Shown: positions 8,409 through 43,531 of the stretch, in pieces
Numbering within the stretch: the stretch's first letter is position 1
Layout: each line of letters begins with the position of its first letter
Assembly (NCBI RefSeq): GCF_003992125.1
Contig: NZ_RQUY01000003.1
Location: forward strand, 1 to 64,000
Length of the DNA stretch: 64,000 nt
Reading direction: 5' to 3'
From: Veillonella caviae
GTDB lineage: Bacteria; Bacillota; Negativicutes; Veillonellales; Veillonellaceae
Program-made: the position numbers and the translations under genes
The notes under the pieces: model-generated
The model's database searches: none
Told to the model about the DNA's origin: nothing
What the model saw: only the letters and a program-made list of their open reading frames with translations

Positions 8409-8489
8409 TAAGTTAAGGTGGAAAGATACACATAAATTTAGTGAAATATGGTAAAATGGAATGATGATGTAATGAAGGAGATTAGCAGT

Positions 8490-9527
8490 ATGAAGTCCAT
8501 TTTACCGTCTTTTGGAAGAGATGTCAGTATTGATATAGGTACATCGATGACTCGTGTTATGGGCGGCACTCGAGAGTCGATGATGAGTGAGCCATCTATT
8601 GTGGCTACAGATACAAAATTAGAAAAGATCGTTGCTGTTGGGGATGATGCGGCCCGTATTGTGCGTCGTATGCCTGATATGTGGCGGTCTTTGTCGCCCT
8701 TACAAGATGGGTTTATCGTTGATTATCGAGTTATGCACACTATGCTTAATTATTTTTTGCATAAAGTTTCGAATGCATTGCGTAGATCTCGCGTGTTAGT
8801 AGGTGTTCCTTGTGGTATGACTGATGTAGCACAACGGGCTATGATGGATGCTGTGATTCAGGCGGGGGCGAGAGAAGTATTTCTTATTGAAAGACCTGTA
8901 GCAGCAGCTATCGGATGTGGTCTACCCATTTTTGCTCCCCGAGGATCTATGGTTATTGATATGGGTGCTGGCACGGTAGATATGGGTATTATATCTTTAG
9001 GTGGTATTGTACATAGCAAAACAATACGATTTGGTGGTACTGATATCGACAAAGCATTGATGCAATATATTAATGAATGCTTTGGACTTCTTGTATCTGA
9101 GCAGACTGTAGAAGATATTAAACATACTGTAGGTACAACGGTTTTACCTGTAGAGGAGCAAGAGTTTTCTTTCACTGGCCGCGATATGACTAGCGGTATT
9201 GTTCGTCGTTCTGTGATTCATCAATCCGAAGTATATCAAGTGATTAGTACCGCCATAGAGGGGTTTCTTGATGCGGTGAATCAAATGATTCGTAATACAG
9301 AACCTGAATTGGTGGCTGATATTATGCAGCACGGTATTGTATTAACTGGTGGCAGTGCACGCTTGGTGGGGATGGCTGAGCGAATTAGTAGTGAAATTGG
9401 CGTTCCTGTAACCATGGCTGATGAACCAGAATTGATGGTAGTGAAAGGTTTATATGGCAGCGCAAAACACATTGTTGAGTTATCTCGATTTATTGTAAAT
9501 ACAAAGGATAGAAAGGGTAGAGCATGA
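8490..9527 (+). CDS. mreB: MreB-family actin homologue, divergent at nucleotide-site residues
   Basis: Bacterial actin that in rods forms membrane filaments steering peptidoglycan synthesis. Start ATG 8490 is chosen for AAGGAG at 8475-8480; the longer opening from 8448 lacks a site. The 345-residue chain keeps the MreB outline: DIGTSMTR (phosphate 1, residue 15 on), LIERP (131-136), DMGAGTVD (phosphate 2, 157-164), VISLGG-like ISLGGI, and GIVLTGGSA (adenosine). Against the textbook sequences I remember, IEEP has become IERP, so Arg135 replaces the presumed catalytic Glu (E131 in Thermotoga MreB), and GGGTTE has become GAGTVD. It may therefore be ATPase-impaired. It overlaps mreC by 4 bases. 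Confidence 0.9.
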   Translation: MKSILPSFGRDVSIDIGTSMTRVMGGTRESMMSEPSIVATDTKLEKIVAVGDDAARIVRRMPDMWRSLSPLQDGFIVDYRVMHTMLNYFLHKVSNALRRSRVLVGVPCGMTDVAQRAMMDAVIQAGAREVFLIERPVAAAIGCGLPIFAPRGSMVIDMGAGTVDMGIISLGGIVHSKTIRFGGTDIDKALMQYINECFGLLVSEQTVEDIKHTVGTTVLPVEEQEFSFTGRDMTSGIVRRSVIHQSEVYQVISTAIEGFLDAVNQMIRNTEPELVADIMQHGIVLTGGSARLVGMAERISSEIGVPVTMADEPELMVVKGLYGSAKHIVELSRFIVNTKDRKGRA

Positions 9528-10441
9528 TTCATTCAGACCGTAAATTGATTGTTTTTGTGGCCGTTAGTTGTATGATTCTCGCTCTTTTAGGATTTGCATG
9601 GAAGCAAAGAACAAGTATTCCTTTCGTTACAGTGACTTTAGAAGAGCTTACAACACCATTTGTTTATGGTTCGGCTCGTGTGCTCAATAATATAACTACT
9701 GGAATCGGTGTTATTGATACAGCGGTTATAGGGGCTTTTACAGATAGTGAAAAAGATAACACCATAGCTACATTGGAACAGAAATTAGCCAATCAAGATG
9801 AAGTGGTGGCAGAAAACATTCGGTTTCGCCAATTATTAAATTATAAGGAATCCCATCCGGAATTTACTATGACTGTAGCAGGGGTTATAACAAAAGATTA
9901 TGGTACCTGGACAAATACTTTTACTATCGATAGAGGTGAAGTGGATGGTATTGAGCCTAATATGGCAGTTGTGGTGCCTAGCGGTGTAGTTGGATTCATT
10001 ACTGATGTATATCCTCATTCAGCACGGGTACAAACCTTTCTTGATCCTCGCAGTGCTATAGGCGTTATTATACAACGTCCAGAATCTAGATTAGCTGGTG
10101 TTGTAAAAGGTGATGGCAATAGACCTAATGAGCCTATTATGGTAAATATTGCTCGTGATGGTGATGTATTGGTGGGAGATAAACTCATTACTTCTGGTTA
10201 TGGTGGTATTTATCCAAAAGGTCTATTGGTAGGAAATGTGACAAATATTGAAAATGACAAAGAGGGTTTTGTAAAAAATGCGACTATAAAACCAACCGTT
10301 GATTTTCATCGATTAGAAGAAGTATTTATTATTACTAGTTCTACTGTACAAAGTCCAGAAAAAGCACCATTAGAACCTAGATTAGTGCCGCAAACGCAGC
10401 GAGATCAAGTGCAAGGTGTGAAAGGGGCTGTAGCGCCATGA
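9524..10441 (+). CDS. mreC: Rod-shape protein MreC
   Basis: Bitopic membrane protein that links MreB filaments to extracytoplasmic PBP2 and activates it. The 305 residues show a single N-terminal TM segment (about 8-26), a predicted coiled coil around 85-110 (LEQKLANQDEVVAENIRF), then the beta-rich MreC domain with the recognisable ITKDYGTWTNTFTIDRG and TSGYGGIYPKGLLVG segments. The C-terminal tail is polar and basic. ATG overlaps the mreB stop, so translation is coupled; mreD starts 4 bases before its own end. Length is in the family's normal range. Confidence 0.95.
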   Translation: MIHSDRKLIVFVAVSCMILALLGFAWKQRTSIPFVTVTLEELTTPFVYGSARVLNNITTGIGVIDTAVIGAFTDSEKDNTIATLEQKLANQDEVVAENIRFRQLLNYKESHPEFTMTVAGVITKDYGTWTNTFTIDRGEVDGIEPNMAVVVPSGVVGFITDVYPHSARVQTFLDPRSAIGVIIQRPESRLAGVVKGDGNRPNEPIMVNIARDGDVLVGDKLITSGYGGIYPKGLLVGNVTNIENDKEGFVKNATIKPTVDFHRLEEVFIITSSTVQSPEKAPLEPRLVPQTQRDQVQGVKGAVAP

Positions 10442-10929
10442 GACGAGTAACCATCTTTTTCATGTGTTGTTTACTATTCTCTATACAAGCTCAAGTATTA
10501 CCTGCTTTATTCCATACCAATTGGCTGCCAAATGCAATTCTCACTACCATTGTAACTATTACCTTATTTAAAGGTCATCAGACTGGACTTATCAGTGCTG
10601 TTATTGGTGGTGGCATACAGGATATTTTAATATCTAATTTTTTTGGACTGCACATCTTTCCTTATGTATTGATTATTTATGCGTTGTCTATAGTGCAACA
10701 TCGTATGTATGAGGAACGGTGGTATTGGACCTGTATATTGGTGGCCATTGCAACTGTTCTAGATGGTTTGATTCGTATTGTTATGATTTCGGCTAGTGGA
10801 GGAGACATATCTTTCTTTGCATATTTATGGTACATGGTATTGCCAACCGTGTTTTGGAATGCCTTCATAGGTGCTGTTATCCATAATATTATGAAATATA
10901 CACAAGAGCGAGAGGATTATATTTGGTAA
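10438..10929 (+). CDS. mreD: Rod-shape protein MreD
   Basis: A 163-residue integral membrane protein with about five hydrophobic segments, matching MreD in length and position. MreD has few conserved residues, so the call rests on size, topology and its place between mreC (4-base overlap) and PBP2 (24-base gap). It is part of the elongation complex at the cytoplasmic membrane. Confidence 0.9.
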   Translation: MRRVTIFFMCCLLFSIQAQVLPALFHTNWLPNAILTTIVTITLFKGHQTGLISAVIGGGIQDILISNFFGLHIFPYVLIIYALSIVQHRMYEERWYWTCILVAIATVLDGLIRIVMISASGGDISFFAYLWYMVLPTVFWNAFIGAVIHNIMKYTQEREDYIW

Positions 10930-10953: not shown

Positions 10954-12858
10954 GTGCTTGAAAGTTTATATAAGCGAAAAAAAACGAGTCGCTTTGATGT
11001 GCTCTTTTATATAGTAACGGGGATTTTCATCATTCTTGGTCTTCGTTTATTTGCCATGCAAGTGTTAGAAGGCGGTTATTATCAATCTAAAGCAGAAGGT
11101 AATCGTCTTCGTATGGTACCGATGACTGCTGCTCGTGGTATTATGTATGACCGAAACGGACAAATTTTGGTAGGCTCAAGACCAGCATATACGATTTCTA
11201 TTATGCCTACTGGTAAGCCTTTAGATGAACAGGAATTGGACAAGTTAGCAGAGCTTATCCATAAAAAGCCAGAAGAAATTCAAAAAAAAGTGAATGATCA
11301 TAAACATGGCTATGAACCTATTAGAATTGCTACGGATATTTCCATGGATGTGGTCACAAATGTGGAAGAACATCGACATGAGTTGCCTGGTGTATCTATT
11401 GATGTAGAGCCACTTAGATTTTATCCTTATGAAACGATGGCTTCCCAGTTATTTGGCTATGTTGGGGAAGTTAGCGAAGAAGAATTAGATGAAATTAAAG
11501 ATAAAGATCCTAGCTCGCCCATTAACAGTGGTACAATTTTAGGCCGTGCAGGACTAGAAAAATTATACGATGCGGTGTTGCGTGGCACTGATGGGGGAAA
11601 ACAGTTAGAAGTAGATGCTACAGGTCGGCCTGTAGCAGAGGTGGATCGCAAGAATACTATTCCAGGTTCTAATATTCATTTAACCATTGATGTGAGTATT
11701 CAAAAAGCCGCTGAAGAAGCAGTAGACAAACAATTAAATCAGTTACAGGCTCAAGGCACACCGGCTACAGGCGCTGCCGTAGTAGCATTGGACCCTAATA
11801 CAGGGGCCGTATTGGCCATGGTTAGTGCACCTGAATTTAATCCAAATTGGTTTGCTCGTGGCATTACAACGAAGCAATGGGAACAATTAAATAATGACAA
11901 GGCGCACCCTTTTGAAAATAAGGTAATTGCCGGCGAATACCCACCAGGTTCACCTTTTAAAATCGTTACTGGTGCAGCCGCATTAGATTTAAAAAAAGTT
12001 ACACCAGATGAGATGATTTTCGATAGTGGGAAACATTGGCTCATCGATAAGCGCAATGCAGAAGGAGAAGCATTAGGGTGGCTTAATTTCAATCGTGCTT
12101 TGGCTAAATCAGATAATGTATATTTTTATGAACTAGGCAATCGATTAGGCATTGAAAATATCGATACTTATGCACGGTATTTTGGATTAGGTGAAAAAAC
12201 TGGTATTAACCTTGTAGGAGAGGCAGCGGGCAATGTAGCAAGCCCTGAATATAAGAAAAAGGTATTTGATCAAGAGTGGTACTTAGGGGAAACTTTTGAT
12301 GCTGCTATTGGGCAATCATTCCATTTGGTAACGCCATTGCAAATGGCGGTTCTCCTTAGCCAGGTCGCTAATGGTGGTATTCGTTATGAACCATATGTAG
12401 TGAGTCGCGTGGATCATGCAGACGGGACACCAGCTGAAATTTTTGGACCTAAAAAGTTAGGTGTATTGCCAATTCCCAAAAATGTGATGGATCTTATTCG
12501 TGAAGGTTTACGAGATGTTACTAGTGAGGGTGGTACAGCTGGCGAAGTGTTTAAAGGATTTCCTATAGCTGTTGCAGGTAAAACAGGGACTGCTGAAAAT
12601 GCACATGGCCGAGATCACGGCTGGTTTGTTGCCTATGCTCCATATGATAATCCACGCATTGTGGTAGTAGCCATTGTAGAGCAAGGTGGTTTTGGTGCTG
12701 GTTCAGCAGGTCCTATTGTTCGAGATATATTAGCAGCTTATTTTAATGTGCCACAGCGAGATGTATCTAAACAAGATAATACAACTAATACATCGAAAAC
12801 TGGACAAGGTGGATTTGCCCGTTTACAAAGCAATGATACTACACCTACTAGACGATAA
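10954..12858 (+). CDS. mrdA: Penicillin-binding protein 2 (elongation transpeptidase)
   Basis: Class B PBP that cross-links peptidoglycan during side-wall growth, working with RodA. 634 residues: one N-terminal TM (about 18-36), the PBP dimerisation domain with RGIMYDRNG, and the transpeptidase domain with all three catalytic motifs: SPFK (active Ser near 333), SDN (near 389) and KTGT (near 543). Start is GTG 10954, preceded by GGGAG at 10942-10946. The tail after residue 600 is Thr/Asn-rich and probably disordered. Catalytic motifs are intact, unlike the MreB upstream. Confidence 0.96.
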   Translation: MLESLYKRKKTSRFDVLFYIVTGIFIILGLRLFAMQVLEGGYYQSKAEGNRLRMVPMTAARGIMYDRNGQILVGSRPAYTISIMPTGKPLDEQELDKLAELIHKKPEEIQKKVNDHKHGYEPIRIATDISMDVVTNVEEHRHELPGVSIDVEPLRFYPYETMASQLFGYVGEVSEEELDEIKDKDPSSPINSGTILGRAGLEKLYDAVLRGTDGGKQLEVDATGRPVAEVDRKNTIPGSNIHLTIDVSIQKAAEEAVDKQLNQLQAQGTPATGAAVVALDPNTGAVLAMVSAPEFNPNWFARGITTKQWEQLNNDKAHPFENKVIAGEYPPGSPFKIVTGAAALDLKKVTPDEMIFDSGKHWLIDKRNAEGEALGWLNFNRALAKSDNVYFYELGNRLGIENIDTYARYFGLGEKTGINLVGEAAGNVASPEYKKKVFDQEWYLGETFDAAIGQSFHLVTPLQMAVLLSQVANGGIRYEPYVVSRVDHADGTPAEIFGPKKLGVLPIPKNVMDLIREGLRDVTSEGGTAGEVFKGFPIAVAGKTGTAENAHGRDHGWFVAYAPYDNPRIVVVAIVEQGGFGAGSAGPIVRDILAAYFNVPQRDVSKQDNTTNTSKTGQGGFARLQSNDTTPTRR

Positions 12859-12889: not shown

Positions 12890-13798
12890 ATGGGGGATAT
12901 AATTGGTCTTGTCTCTGGAAAAGGAGGCGTAGGCAAAACAACAATCACTGCATGCCTAGGGGGTGTGCTTAGTGAACAAGGTTACCGAGTACTTCTCTGT
13001 GATGGTGATTTTGGCCTTCGTGATTTAGATTTAGTGCTAGGGAAAGAAGACGAAGTCCTTTTTGATGCATTGGATGCCATGGCTGATAAAGACTTAACAG
13101 AGGAAGCTATCGTAGAAGTACGTGAATATCTACATCTTTTACCTGCTAATCAACAGATAAGATGGGAAGAGATGGGGCGAAAAAAATACCGTAAATTTGT
13201 CAAACAGTTGGCAGAACGCTATGATTATGTTCTTGTTGATTCACCAGCAGGTATAGGTCGTGGTTTAGAGTCTATTATGGAGTTAGTAGAACGGGTGTTA
13301 ATTATTACCCAGCCATTATGGGTATCCTTGCGGAATGCAGCACGAACTATTCAATTCTGTCGAGATTATGGACATCGAGACTATGCTGTGGTGTTTAATT
13401 CCCTGCATCCTGCAGCGGCTGATTTGAATCTCTATGATATGCTCGATGCATTAGGTGCTGAATATGTAGGTGCTATCTTGCCTTATGAAACCTCTATTGT
13501 AGAAAGCACACAACAAGGTACGCTTATAAATGCTATGTCCAAACAATATAAAGAACTTTTACAACCTGTGGTAGACTATATTACGACTGGTGATGCATGG
13601 GATGAGCAAGATGTGCTAGAACGCTATACAGAGTTAACAACACCTACATCAAAGGAAATTCCTGTTATGTCTACGTTAGCACAGCCTAAAACAACTATAG
13701 CAGATGATACAGCACTTACCTTTACAAATCGCTGGTCTACACAACAACGAGTTATAGATGGGAAGCAAAGTATGTGGCGCCGTAAACGGATGAAGTAG
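12890..13798 (+). CDS. minD: MinD-like P-loop ATPase without adjacent MinC or MinE
   Basis: Deviant Walker A ATPase of the MinD/ParA group. Visible motifs: GKGGVGKTT (residues 10-18), DGDFGLRDLDLVLG (Walker A' region, about 40-53) and DSPAGIGRGLE (Walker B, near 117). MinD forms membrane dimers that recruit MinC to stop FtsZ assembly at wrong sites. The 302 residues exceed the usual 265-270; the extra is a Thr/polar linker and a basic C-terminus ending in SMWRRKRMK rather than the usual amphipathic membrane helix. RBS GGAAGGA at 12873-12879. It sits between PBP2 and rodA, where many Clostridia have minC-minD-minE, but only 31 bases separate it from mrdA and 7 from rodA. Confidence 0.88.
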   Translation: MGDIIGLVSGKGGVGKTTITACLGGVLSEQGYRVLLCDGDFGLRDLDLVLGKEDEVLFDALDAMADKDLTEEAIVEVREYLHLLPANQQIRWEEMGRKKYRKFVKQLAERYDYVLVDSPAGIGRGLESIMELVERVLIITQPLWVSLRNAARTIQFCRDYGHRDYAVVFNSLHPAAADLNLYDMLDALGAEYVGAILPYETSIVESTQQGTLINAMSKQYKELLQPVVDYITTGDAWDEQDVLERYTELTTPTSKEIPVMSTLAQPKTTIADDTALTFTNRWSTQQRVIDGKQSMWRRKRMK

Positions 13799-13805
13799 GT
13801 GTTCT

Positions 13806-14909
13806 ATGGAATTACGAAATTGGCGTCGTTGGGATTGGACTATTATTCTTAGTACACTTTTGTTAGTGTTTTTTGGTATCGTTGCGATAGGTAGTGCAAC
13901 TCATATTAACCAAACTGGATTTCACTTTTCCACATTGGTGGTAAAGCAATTAATCTTCTTTGTTCTTAATGTACTGGTTGTAATAGGTTTACAATTTTTT
14001 GATTATCATAAATTAAAAAATTGGGCAAACGGTATTTACATTATTACAATCTTAATGCTCTTAGCCGTTATTTTTGTTGGTACATCGGCATTGGGGGCAC
14101 AGCGTTGGATTCAATTGGGCCCTATAACGATACAGCCATCAGAATTTTCGAAACTATTGATGATTATTTGTATGGCTAAAATGTTATCCTCACGGTATGA
14201 GCAATTGAATAGCTTCAAGTCTTTATTTATACCTGCTATATATGTAGGCTTTCCTATTCTACTTGTATTTATGCAACCGGATTTGGGGACGTCCTTGGTA
14301 TACATTGCTATATTTATTGGCATGGTGTTTGTATCTGGTATTCACATGCGCTTAGTTCGAATTATGGGGACTGTAGGGACTTTATTGATGCCTTTTGCAT
14401 GGTTTATTTTGAAAGATTACCAAAAACAGCGGATTCTTGTATTTATCAATCCTGATATTGATCCCTTTGGTTCTGGTTATCATATTATTCAGTCTAAAAT
14501 CGCTATTGGCTCTGGCACAATATTGGGGAAAGGTTTATTTAATGGAACACAGAGTCAATTAAATTTCTTGCCAGAAAATCATACAGACTTTATCTTTTCT
14601 GTTATCGGTGAAGAGCTAGGATTTATTGGTTGTAGTATCGTTTTGATGCTTTTGTTTTTACTTATTTATCGCAGTATATCGGTGGCTTATACTTGTAATG
14701 ATAAATTTGGTATGCTCCTCGCTGTGGGCATTGGCAGTATGCTTGCCTTTGAGGTGCTTGTCAACGTTGGCATGACCATGGGGATTATGCCTGTTACAGG
14801 AATTCCATTGCCCTTTATTAGTTATGGTGTTAGTGCATTGACAACGAACATGATTAGCATCGGTATTCTACTAAATATATCTAATCAACGTACAAAATAT
14901 ATGTTTTAA
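13806..14909 (+). CDS. rodA: RodA, SEDS peptidoglycan polymerase
   Basis: Lipid II polymerase of the elongation machine, partner of PBP2. 367 residues with about ten hydrophobic segments. SEDS marks visible are RWIQLGPITIQPSEFSK, MQPDLGTS, NHTDFIFSVIGEELGF and GIPLPFISYG. RodA rather than FtsW is chosen from its place next to mrdA and mreBCD. It begins 7 bases after the MinD-like gene and closes the shape cluster. Confidence 0.94.
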   Translation: MELRNWRRWDWTIILSTLLLVFFGIVAIGSATHINQTGFHFSTLVVKQLIFFVLNVLVVIGLQFFDYHKLKNWANGIYIITILMLLAVIFVGTSALGAQRWIQLGPITIQPSEFSKLLMIICMAKMLSSRYEQLNSFKSLFIPAIYVGFPILLVFMQPDLGTSLVYIAIFIGMVFVSGIHMRLVRIMGTVGTLLMPFAWFILKDYQKQRILVFINPDIDPFGSGYHIIQSKIAIGSGTILGKGLFNGTQSQLNFLPENHTDFIFSVIGEELGFIGCSIVLMLLFLLIYRSISVAYTCNDKFGMLLAVGIGSMLAFEVLVNVGMTMGIMPVTGIPLPFISYGVSALTTNMISIGILLNISNQRTKYMF

Positions 14910-43078: not shown

Positions 43079-43531
43079 GTGGCTGCACTAGGCGAAGAAT
43101 TGCGAAGGGAACGGGTCCGTAGGAACCTTACCTTCAAAGATGTAGAACAAGTACTACATATTAAAACGACTTATTTAGAAGCTATCGAAGATGGCAATTT
43201 TTCCGTTATTCCTGGTCGCGTATATGCTAAGGGGTTTATTCGTAATTATGGCAACTATTTAGGTCTTGATGGGGATAGATTGGTCAAAGAATATCAATGT
43301 GTTGTGGGGGAAGTCGATACTTTCACAGTACGACCTATTATGAGACAAAAAAAAGAATCCATCATTGGTGACGTGCAATCGGAATATTTAGAACATCGTA
43401 CGGCTAAACCGCGTATGTCTTTAGAAACTCGGCAAGTAAAGAGGCAGCGTTCCATTGAACAAGAACGCATTATCTTAGCAGTCATTGCCGTATGTATGAG
43501 TATATTTTTAATTTGGTTATTTCTATTTTAA
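43079..43531 (+). CDS. RodZ-like HTH membrane protein, no extracytoplasmic domain
   Basis: 150 residues: N-terminal Cro/CI-like helix-turn-helix (about 5-70; LGEELRRERVRRNLTFKDVEQ and PGRVYAKGFIRNYG), a basic linker (about 85-125) and a single C-terminal membrane segment (about 128-150) that runs to the end. In rods RodZ links MreB to the cell wall through a periplasmic domain after the TM; here that domain is missing altogether, making it tail-anchored. Start GTG 43079, RBS AAGGGAGG. It directly follows ftsK, like ymfM in Bacillus. pgsA, often next, is absent. Confidence 0.82.
   Translation: MAALGEELRRERVRRNLTFKDVEQVLHIKTTYLEAIEDGNFSVIPGRVYAKGFIRNYGNYLGLDGDRLVKEYQCVVGEVDTFTVRPIMRQKKESIIGDVQSEYLEHRTAKPRMSLETRQVKRQRSIEQERIILAVIAVCMSIFLIWLFLF

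Follow-up and report, generated by a model that had tools for sequence, protein, structure and literature searches.

A conserved, operon-borne MreB without the catalytic glutamate in Veillonella and other coccoid Negativicutes

Introduction

Veillonella, Megasphaera and Acidaminococcus are cocci, and Dialister consists of short rods or coccobacilli; the members of Veillonella's order are mostly round. The origin of cocci is usually ascribed to the loss of MreB and of lateral wall synthesis (PMC12203958), and the purpose of ATP hydrolysis by MreB has itself been called ambiguous (PMC9195046). The locus described here, in a 64,000-nucleotide stretch of a Veillonella caviae contig (hereafter the window), holds an mreB gene whose product carries Arg where the glutamate presumed to activate the hydrolytic water is expected, and it raises the question of what such a protein does and why a coccus keeps it. 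Sequence comparison confirmed the substitution and showed that it extends far beyond one genome: the altered catalytic column occurs naturally in cocci, in an MreB that is conserved there. The papers searched on MreB of Veillonella, Megasphaera, Acidaminococcus or Dialister yielded no description of an operon MreB without this Glu.

The gene and its operon

The gene heads an operon with the order mreB-mreC-mreD-mrdA(PBP2)-minD-like-rodA, laid out as follows (window positions).

8475-8480, + strand: good ribosome-binding site AAGGAG, preceding the ATG at 8490
8490-9527, + strand: operon-borne MreB paralogue without the catalytic Glu, 345 aa by translation
9524-10441, + strand: mreC, starting inside the mreB stop
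10438-10929, + strand: mreD, starting inside the mreC stop
10954-12858, + strand: mrdA (PBP2), TIGR03423 607.9 bits
12890-13798, + strand: MinD-like ATPase
13806-14909, + strand: rodA, TIGR02210 411.6 bits

The Met at 8490 is a start common to genus members in the alignment, and mreC adjoins the operon mreB copy in all members of the order that were read. Overlapping stops and starts at the mreB/mreC and mreC/mreD junctions make the co-transcription that a first-pass annotation of the sequence had claimed likely. The product matched almost the whole of the MreB/Mbl family profile (PF06723, 324.7 bits with a cut-off of 27; NF010539, 331.7 with a cut-off of 293), scored 303.8 on TIGR00904, which is under the cut-off of 365.75 for that model, and aligned over nearly its full length with solved MreB structures at E-values of 1e-66 to 1e-69. 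Its close relatives, which support the assignment of the organism to Veillonella, are all from that genus, namely V. tobetsuensis (81%), V. atypica (80%), V. agrestimuris (77%) and V. parvula SKV38 (72%).

The catalytic glutamate is replaced

Three stretches of the protein were located.

8532-8555, + strand: phosphate-1 loop DIGTSMTR, residues 15-22 (canonical DLGTANT)
8883-8897, + strand: LIERP, residues 132-136, with the R135 codon AGA at 8892-8894 in the catalytic Glu column (T. maritima E131, C. crescentus E140)
8958-8981, + strand: phosphate-2 loop DMGAGTVD, residues 157-164, with T162 and D164 matching C. crescentus T167 and E169

Alignment with the solved structures paired R135 with T. 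maritima E131 and with C. crescentus E140, so the first-pass annotation was right to put Arg at the presumed catalytic Glu. The attacking water in the C. crescentus MreB filament is held by E140 together with T167 (PMC4051119), and the E...T-x-[D/E] hydrolysis motif defined by Takahashi et al. is kept in 95.8% of 4832 non-Spiroplasma MreBs (PMC9597168). This motif is incomplete in the operon MreB, with Glu changed to Arg and with T162 and D164 retained; the protein is thus an MreB by homology that lacks the sequence mark of an active-ATPase MreB. Translation likewise gave the altered phosphate-1 loop that had been reported. The phosphate-2 loop does read GAGTVD as described, but the change lies mostly outside the proposed catalytic residues: because T162 and D164 are kept and V163 stands in for a residue outside the published motif, the difference carries little weight, and we rejected it as an independent sign of inactivity.

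Among the 14 distinct Veillonella operon copies the column holds R in 11, T in two and A in one, and the Arg codon alternates between AGA and CGN. A substitution that is lineage-wide and whose Arg codons switch is not a sequencing error or the product of chance, and a single-strain quirk was rejected on the same grounds. A shifted alignment masking a Glu was also rejected, as the motif is ungapped in several independent alignments. A structure model of the operon MreB built from eight sequences (the window and seven Veillonella) reached a mean pLDDT of 42.5, too poor for use.

Loss of the glutamate spans the order

The first-pass annotation had proposed an alignment of Negativicutes MreBs at the column of T. 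maritima E131, and there Glu occurs in none of the 56 distinct mreC-linked MreBs from the four sampled families of Veillonellales, as against all 33 distinct operon copies from the other Negativicutes sampled, Acidaminococcus excluded. The replacing residue varies by lineage, with T, A and S in the non-Veillonella members of Veillonella's own family, T in 17 copies from family f3, A, S or V in family f2, and R in three copies from family f4; we presume f2 to be Dialister-like and f3 Megasphaera-like, the family names of f2, f3 and f4 having been assigned with knowledge of GTDB. In the wider phylum, Glu was found in 29 of the best 30 MreB matches, a sample biased to high scorers whose thirtieth member was not readable by the motif pattern and has the phosphate-2 loop GGGTSE. 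The Veillonellales operon MreBs lacking Glu formed one clade with a support of 99 in a tree from which the catalytic columns were masked and f4 was left out.

A further loss lies outside the order. One genome (G112, genus g40, family f16) encodes a 237-residue glutaconate CoA-transferase stretch identical to PDB 1POI, which we take to be the A. fermentans protein and g40 hence to be Acidaminococcus. In this genus the operon MreBs of five out of seven genomes have EAP or EGP at the motif and those of the other two have EEP, and the remainder of f16 retains EEP. A common origin of the losses in Acidaminococcus and Veillonellales was rejected (p-AU 0.004), and the tree implies at least five changes in the Glu column when second copies are included, the catalytic columns being masked in both analyses. 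A catalytically altered operon MreB has evolved at least twice, in cocci.

Glu loss follows coccoid lineages, Veillonellales and independently Acidaminococcus, and two lineages are a small number on which to base a claim about shape. The first-pass annotation had seen in the protein an intermediate in the loss of rod shape, should the organism be a coccus such as Veillonella, and this part did not hold up as well: the loss is less an intermediate than an old state, order-wide and kept by selection rather than a step to gene loss.

The altered gene is under purifying selection

Pairs of Veillonella operon copies gave dN/dS values of 0.008-0.082 (median 0.033), which is strong purifying selection. 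Values for the second MreB copy of Veillonella were mostly lower (median 0.012 over eight comparable pairs), and those of the Dialister-like and Acidaminococcus operon copies (0.07-0.18) indicate looser selection. Columns conserved at 90% or more number 122 in the Veillonellaceae operon copies versus 115 in canonical MreB (61 sequences). With intact frames and low dN/dS a pseudogene was rejected, in agreement with the first-pass annotation.

A related idea is that the gene is a decaying leftover, kept only through its frame coupling to mreC and mreD. Branches leading to operon copies do exceed canonical branches in length, above all in the Dialister-like and f4 genomes, and the Glu column drifts among R, T, A and S. 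Yet selection acts on the whole protein (dN/dS near 0.03), frames are intact in all genomes matched and the Veillonella Arg is conserved through codon changes, and we regard such decay, already disfavoured, as very improbable.

About a dozen columns that are near-invariant in the 61 canonical MreBs are flipped in the Veillonellaceae operon copies, E140 among them, and these bear on whether the operon MreB could still be an active ATPase in which Glu134 or some other residue substitutes for the lost Glu. Veillonella does keep E134, the motif's first acidic residue, together with T162 and D164. However, canonical MreBs already have an acidic neighbour beside the catalytic Glu (LIEEP, LIDEP), this neighbour is gone in Dialister-like copies (LISAP), no compensating acidic change appeared among the flipped columns, and the water contact was assigned to the second acidic residue in the C. 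crescentus structures (PMC4051119), all of which leaves continued activity doubtful.

A second MreB keeps the complete motif

Each of the 14 Veillonella genomes carries, besides the operon mreB, a second MreB, missed by the first-pass annotation, that adjoins murA and whose LIEEP and GGGTTD make up an intact E...T-x-D site. Because this copy is present in every Veillonella genome, the cell is not deprived of an ATPase-competent MreB. In the genome studied here it (L001 1006-2496, G000:C10) has a basic N-terminal extension within a 496-aa frame, the frames in the genus running from 394 to 496 aa.

Second copies elsewhere are more varied. Those of the Dialister-like family f2 (L088, L090-L093) have Gln at the catalytic column and S or N at the column of C. 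crescentus E169; Gln (Q137) is the residue that actin uses at the catalytic column. In f4 (L094-L097) the catalytic Glu is absent from both MreB copies, with the operon copies reading DRG beside a disrupted phosphate-2 loop and the single second copy that was read having SGT and GAGKTD. Glu is also gone from the Acidaminococcus second copies L162, L163 and L165 (EGP), which may leave these cells without any MreB whose motif is complete.

Membrane loop, filament interfaces and RodZ

Two further features of the window are also altered.

8766-8792, + strand: membrane-insertion loop region VSNALRRSR, lacking two residues relative to the canonical loop and with Arg for the second hydrophobic residue (compared with C. 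crescentus F102/V103)
43079-43531, + strand: RodZ-like protein with HTH_25, a linker and a C-terminal hydrophobic segment, without RodZ_C; a likely partner

The membrane loop of C. crescentus MreB is formed by F102 and V103 (PMC4051119). This hydrophobic loop is not conserved in the operon MreB: two residues are deleted, and each of the 14 distinct Veillonella copies carries Arg at the second hydrophobic position. Across the operon copies of the order, the loop has lost two residues in Veillonellaceae and f3 and one in f2 and f4, and the place of its second hydrophobic residue is taken by R, G, S, Q, H, T or A. The filament interface gave a different picture: V118, mutation of which breaks protofilament pairing in C. 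crescentus (PMC4051119), is Val in all 56 operon copies, this being the sole column checked for antiparallel double filaments.

RodZ is cut short in the order. Searches for RodZ_C gave no match in the seven genomes sampled from the order and a match in all three from outside it, and a RodZ-type HTH was found in all ten, within frames of 141-157 aa inside the order versus 246-506 aa outside. The RodZ-like protein of the window stops just after its C-terminal hydrophobic segment, and its gene lies downstream of ftsK/spoIIIE. MinC was not found in the sampled genomes of families f1, f3, f4 or f16 (f2 was outside this sample), and the MinD-like gene at 12890-13798 persists in the mre operon all the same. 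A review describes V. parvula as having no homologue of any characterised Z-ring placement system.

A probable role beside the second MreB

We propose that the operon MreB is a retained pseudo-ATPase, a static subunit or adaptor beside an ATPase-competent paralogue, and put the probability of this reading, drawn from sequence, at about 0.58. In Veillonellaceae the protein probably still binds nucleotide and can probably still join MreB-type protofilaments, its ATP hydrolysis is predicted to be very slow or absent, and membrane insertion by way of the customary hydrophobic loop is not expected. Most likely it would sit in the Rod complex alongside MreC, MreD, PBP2, RodA and the truncated RodZ, as a subunit or adaptor that is stable and does not cycle, with ATPase-driven turnover presumably supplied by the second, murA-linked MreB.

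Analogy suggests that stable or scaffold-like filaments are the most plausible consequence of Glu loss, as the first-pass annotation had also supposed. Spiroplasma MreB3, with natural changes to the motif, shows very low or slow Pi release, and its filaments have been proposed to be stable (PMC9597168). MamK-E143A filaments are static (PMC5059902), and those of ScMreB5-E134A have impaired dynamics, with disassembly not seen (PMC9195046). The ScMreB5-E134A protein also polymerised and bundled worse than wild type (PMC9195046), so Glu loss need not give more stable filaments. In E. coli, mreB(E143A) is carried as a viable A22-resistant allele, and loss of the catalytic Glu can thus be tolerable.

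It is also conceivable, if unlikely, that the operon MreB never polymerises in cells and instead restrains elongation as a monomeric adaptor or as a capping or regulatory subunit on canonical MreB or on MreC/RodZ. Glu, phosphate-1 loop and membrane loop are all changed, and one Spiroplasma MreB is known to regulate the filaments of another (PMC12337190). Moreover, not even the glycine-rich phosphate-2 loop survives in Dialister-like and f4 copies (e.g. GRDVTD), and at the intra-filament column of C. crescentus S283 most Dialister-like copies carry E or D, an S283D mutant of the C. crescentus protein yielding monomers (PMC4051119). In Veillonellaceae, by contrast, the tested interface columns are canonical (V118, and at S283 an A that many canonical copies share) and T162 and D164 are retained.

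Cell shape and comparison with known systems

The mreBCD genes and two MreBs are retained in whole families, and PBP2 and RodA as well in this genome. A broader and more speculative proposal, which we think has a lesser chance of being right, is that rods may have evolved into cocci repeatedly by losing ATPase activity in the operon MreB and keeping a canonical paralogue, with the dead MreB selected as an adaptor of the Rod complex or a static brake on it. If true, cocci such as Veillonella would retain a rewired elongation machine instead of losing it. The locus offers a natural experiment on the purpose of MreB ATP hydrolysis, with the catalytic residue altered, the membrane loop gone and RodZ cut short, and genetics works in V. 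parvula SKV38. Strict conservation of the altered protein beside a second MreB elsewhere in the genome makes it testable why cocci retain machinery for rod shape.

Among known systems, the canonical MreBs of E. coli, C. crescentus and T. maritima are alike in family, mreB-mreC-mreD order, near full-length alignment and V118; unlike them, the operon copy is without the catalytic Glu, its phosphate-1 loop is altered, its membrane loop is shortened and a second, canonical MreB is present. B. subtilis likewise holds paralogous MreBs in one cell (Mbl and MreBH), but these are canonical, unlike the Veillonella pair in which one member lacks the catalytic residue and the other adjoins murA. Spiroplasma MreB3 is similarly a natural paralogue changed at the hydrolysis motif alongside ATPase-competent paralogues, with the motif D, K, S/T in a wall-less helical bacterium (PMC9597168), whereas the window MreB has R/T/D, only Glu being lost (R/T/A at that column in the genus), and belongs to an mre operon in a walled coccus. 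The equivalent Glu is also lost in ScMreB5-E134A and MamK-E143A, but those are laboratory mutants (PMC9195046, PMC5059902), and the Veillonella state is natural and selected.
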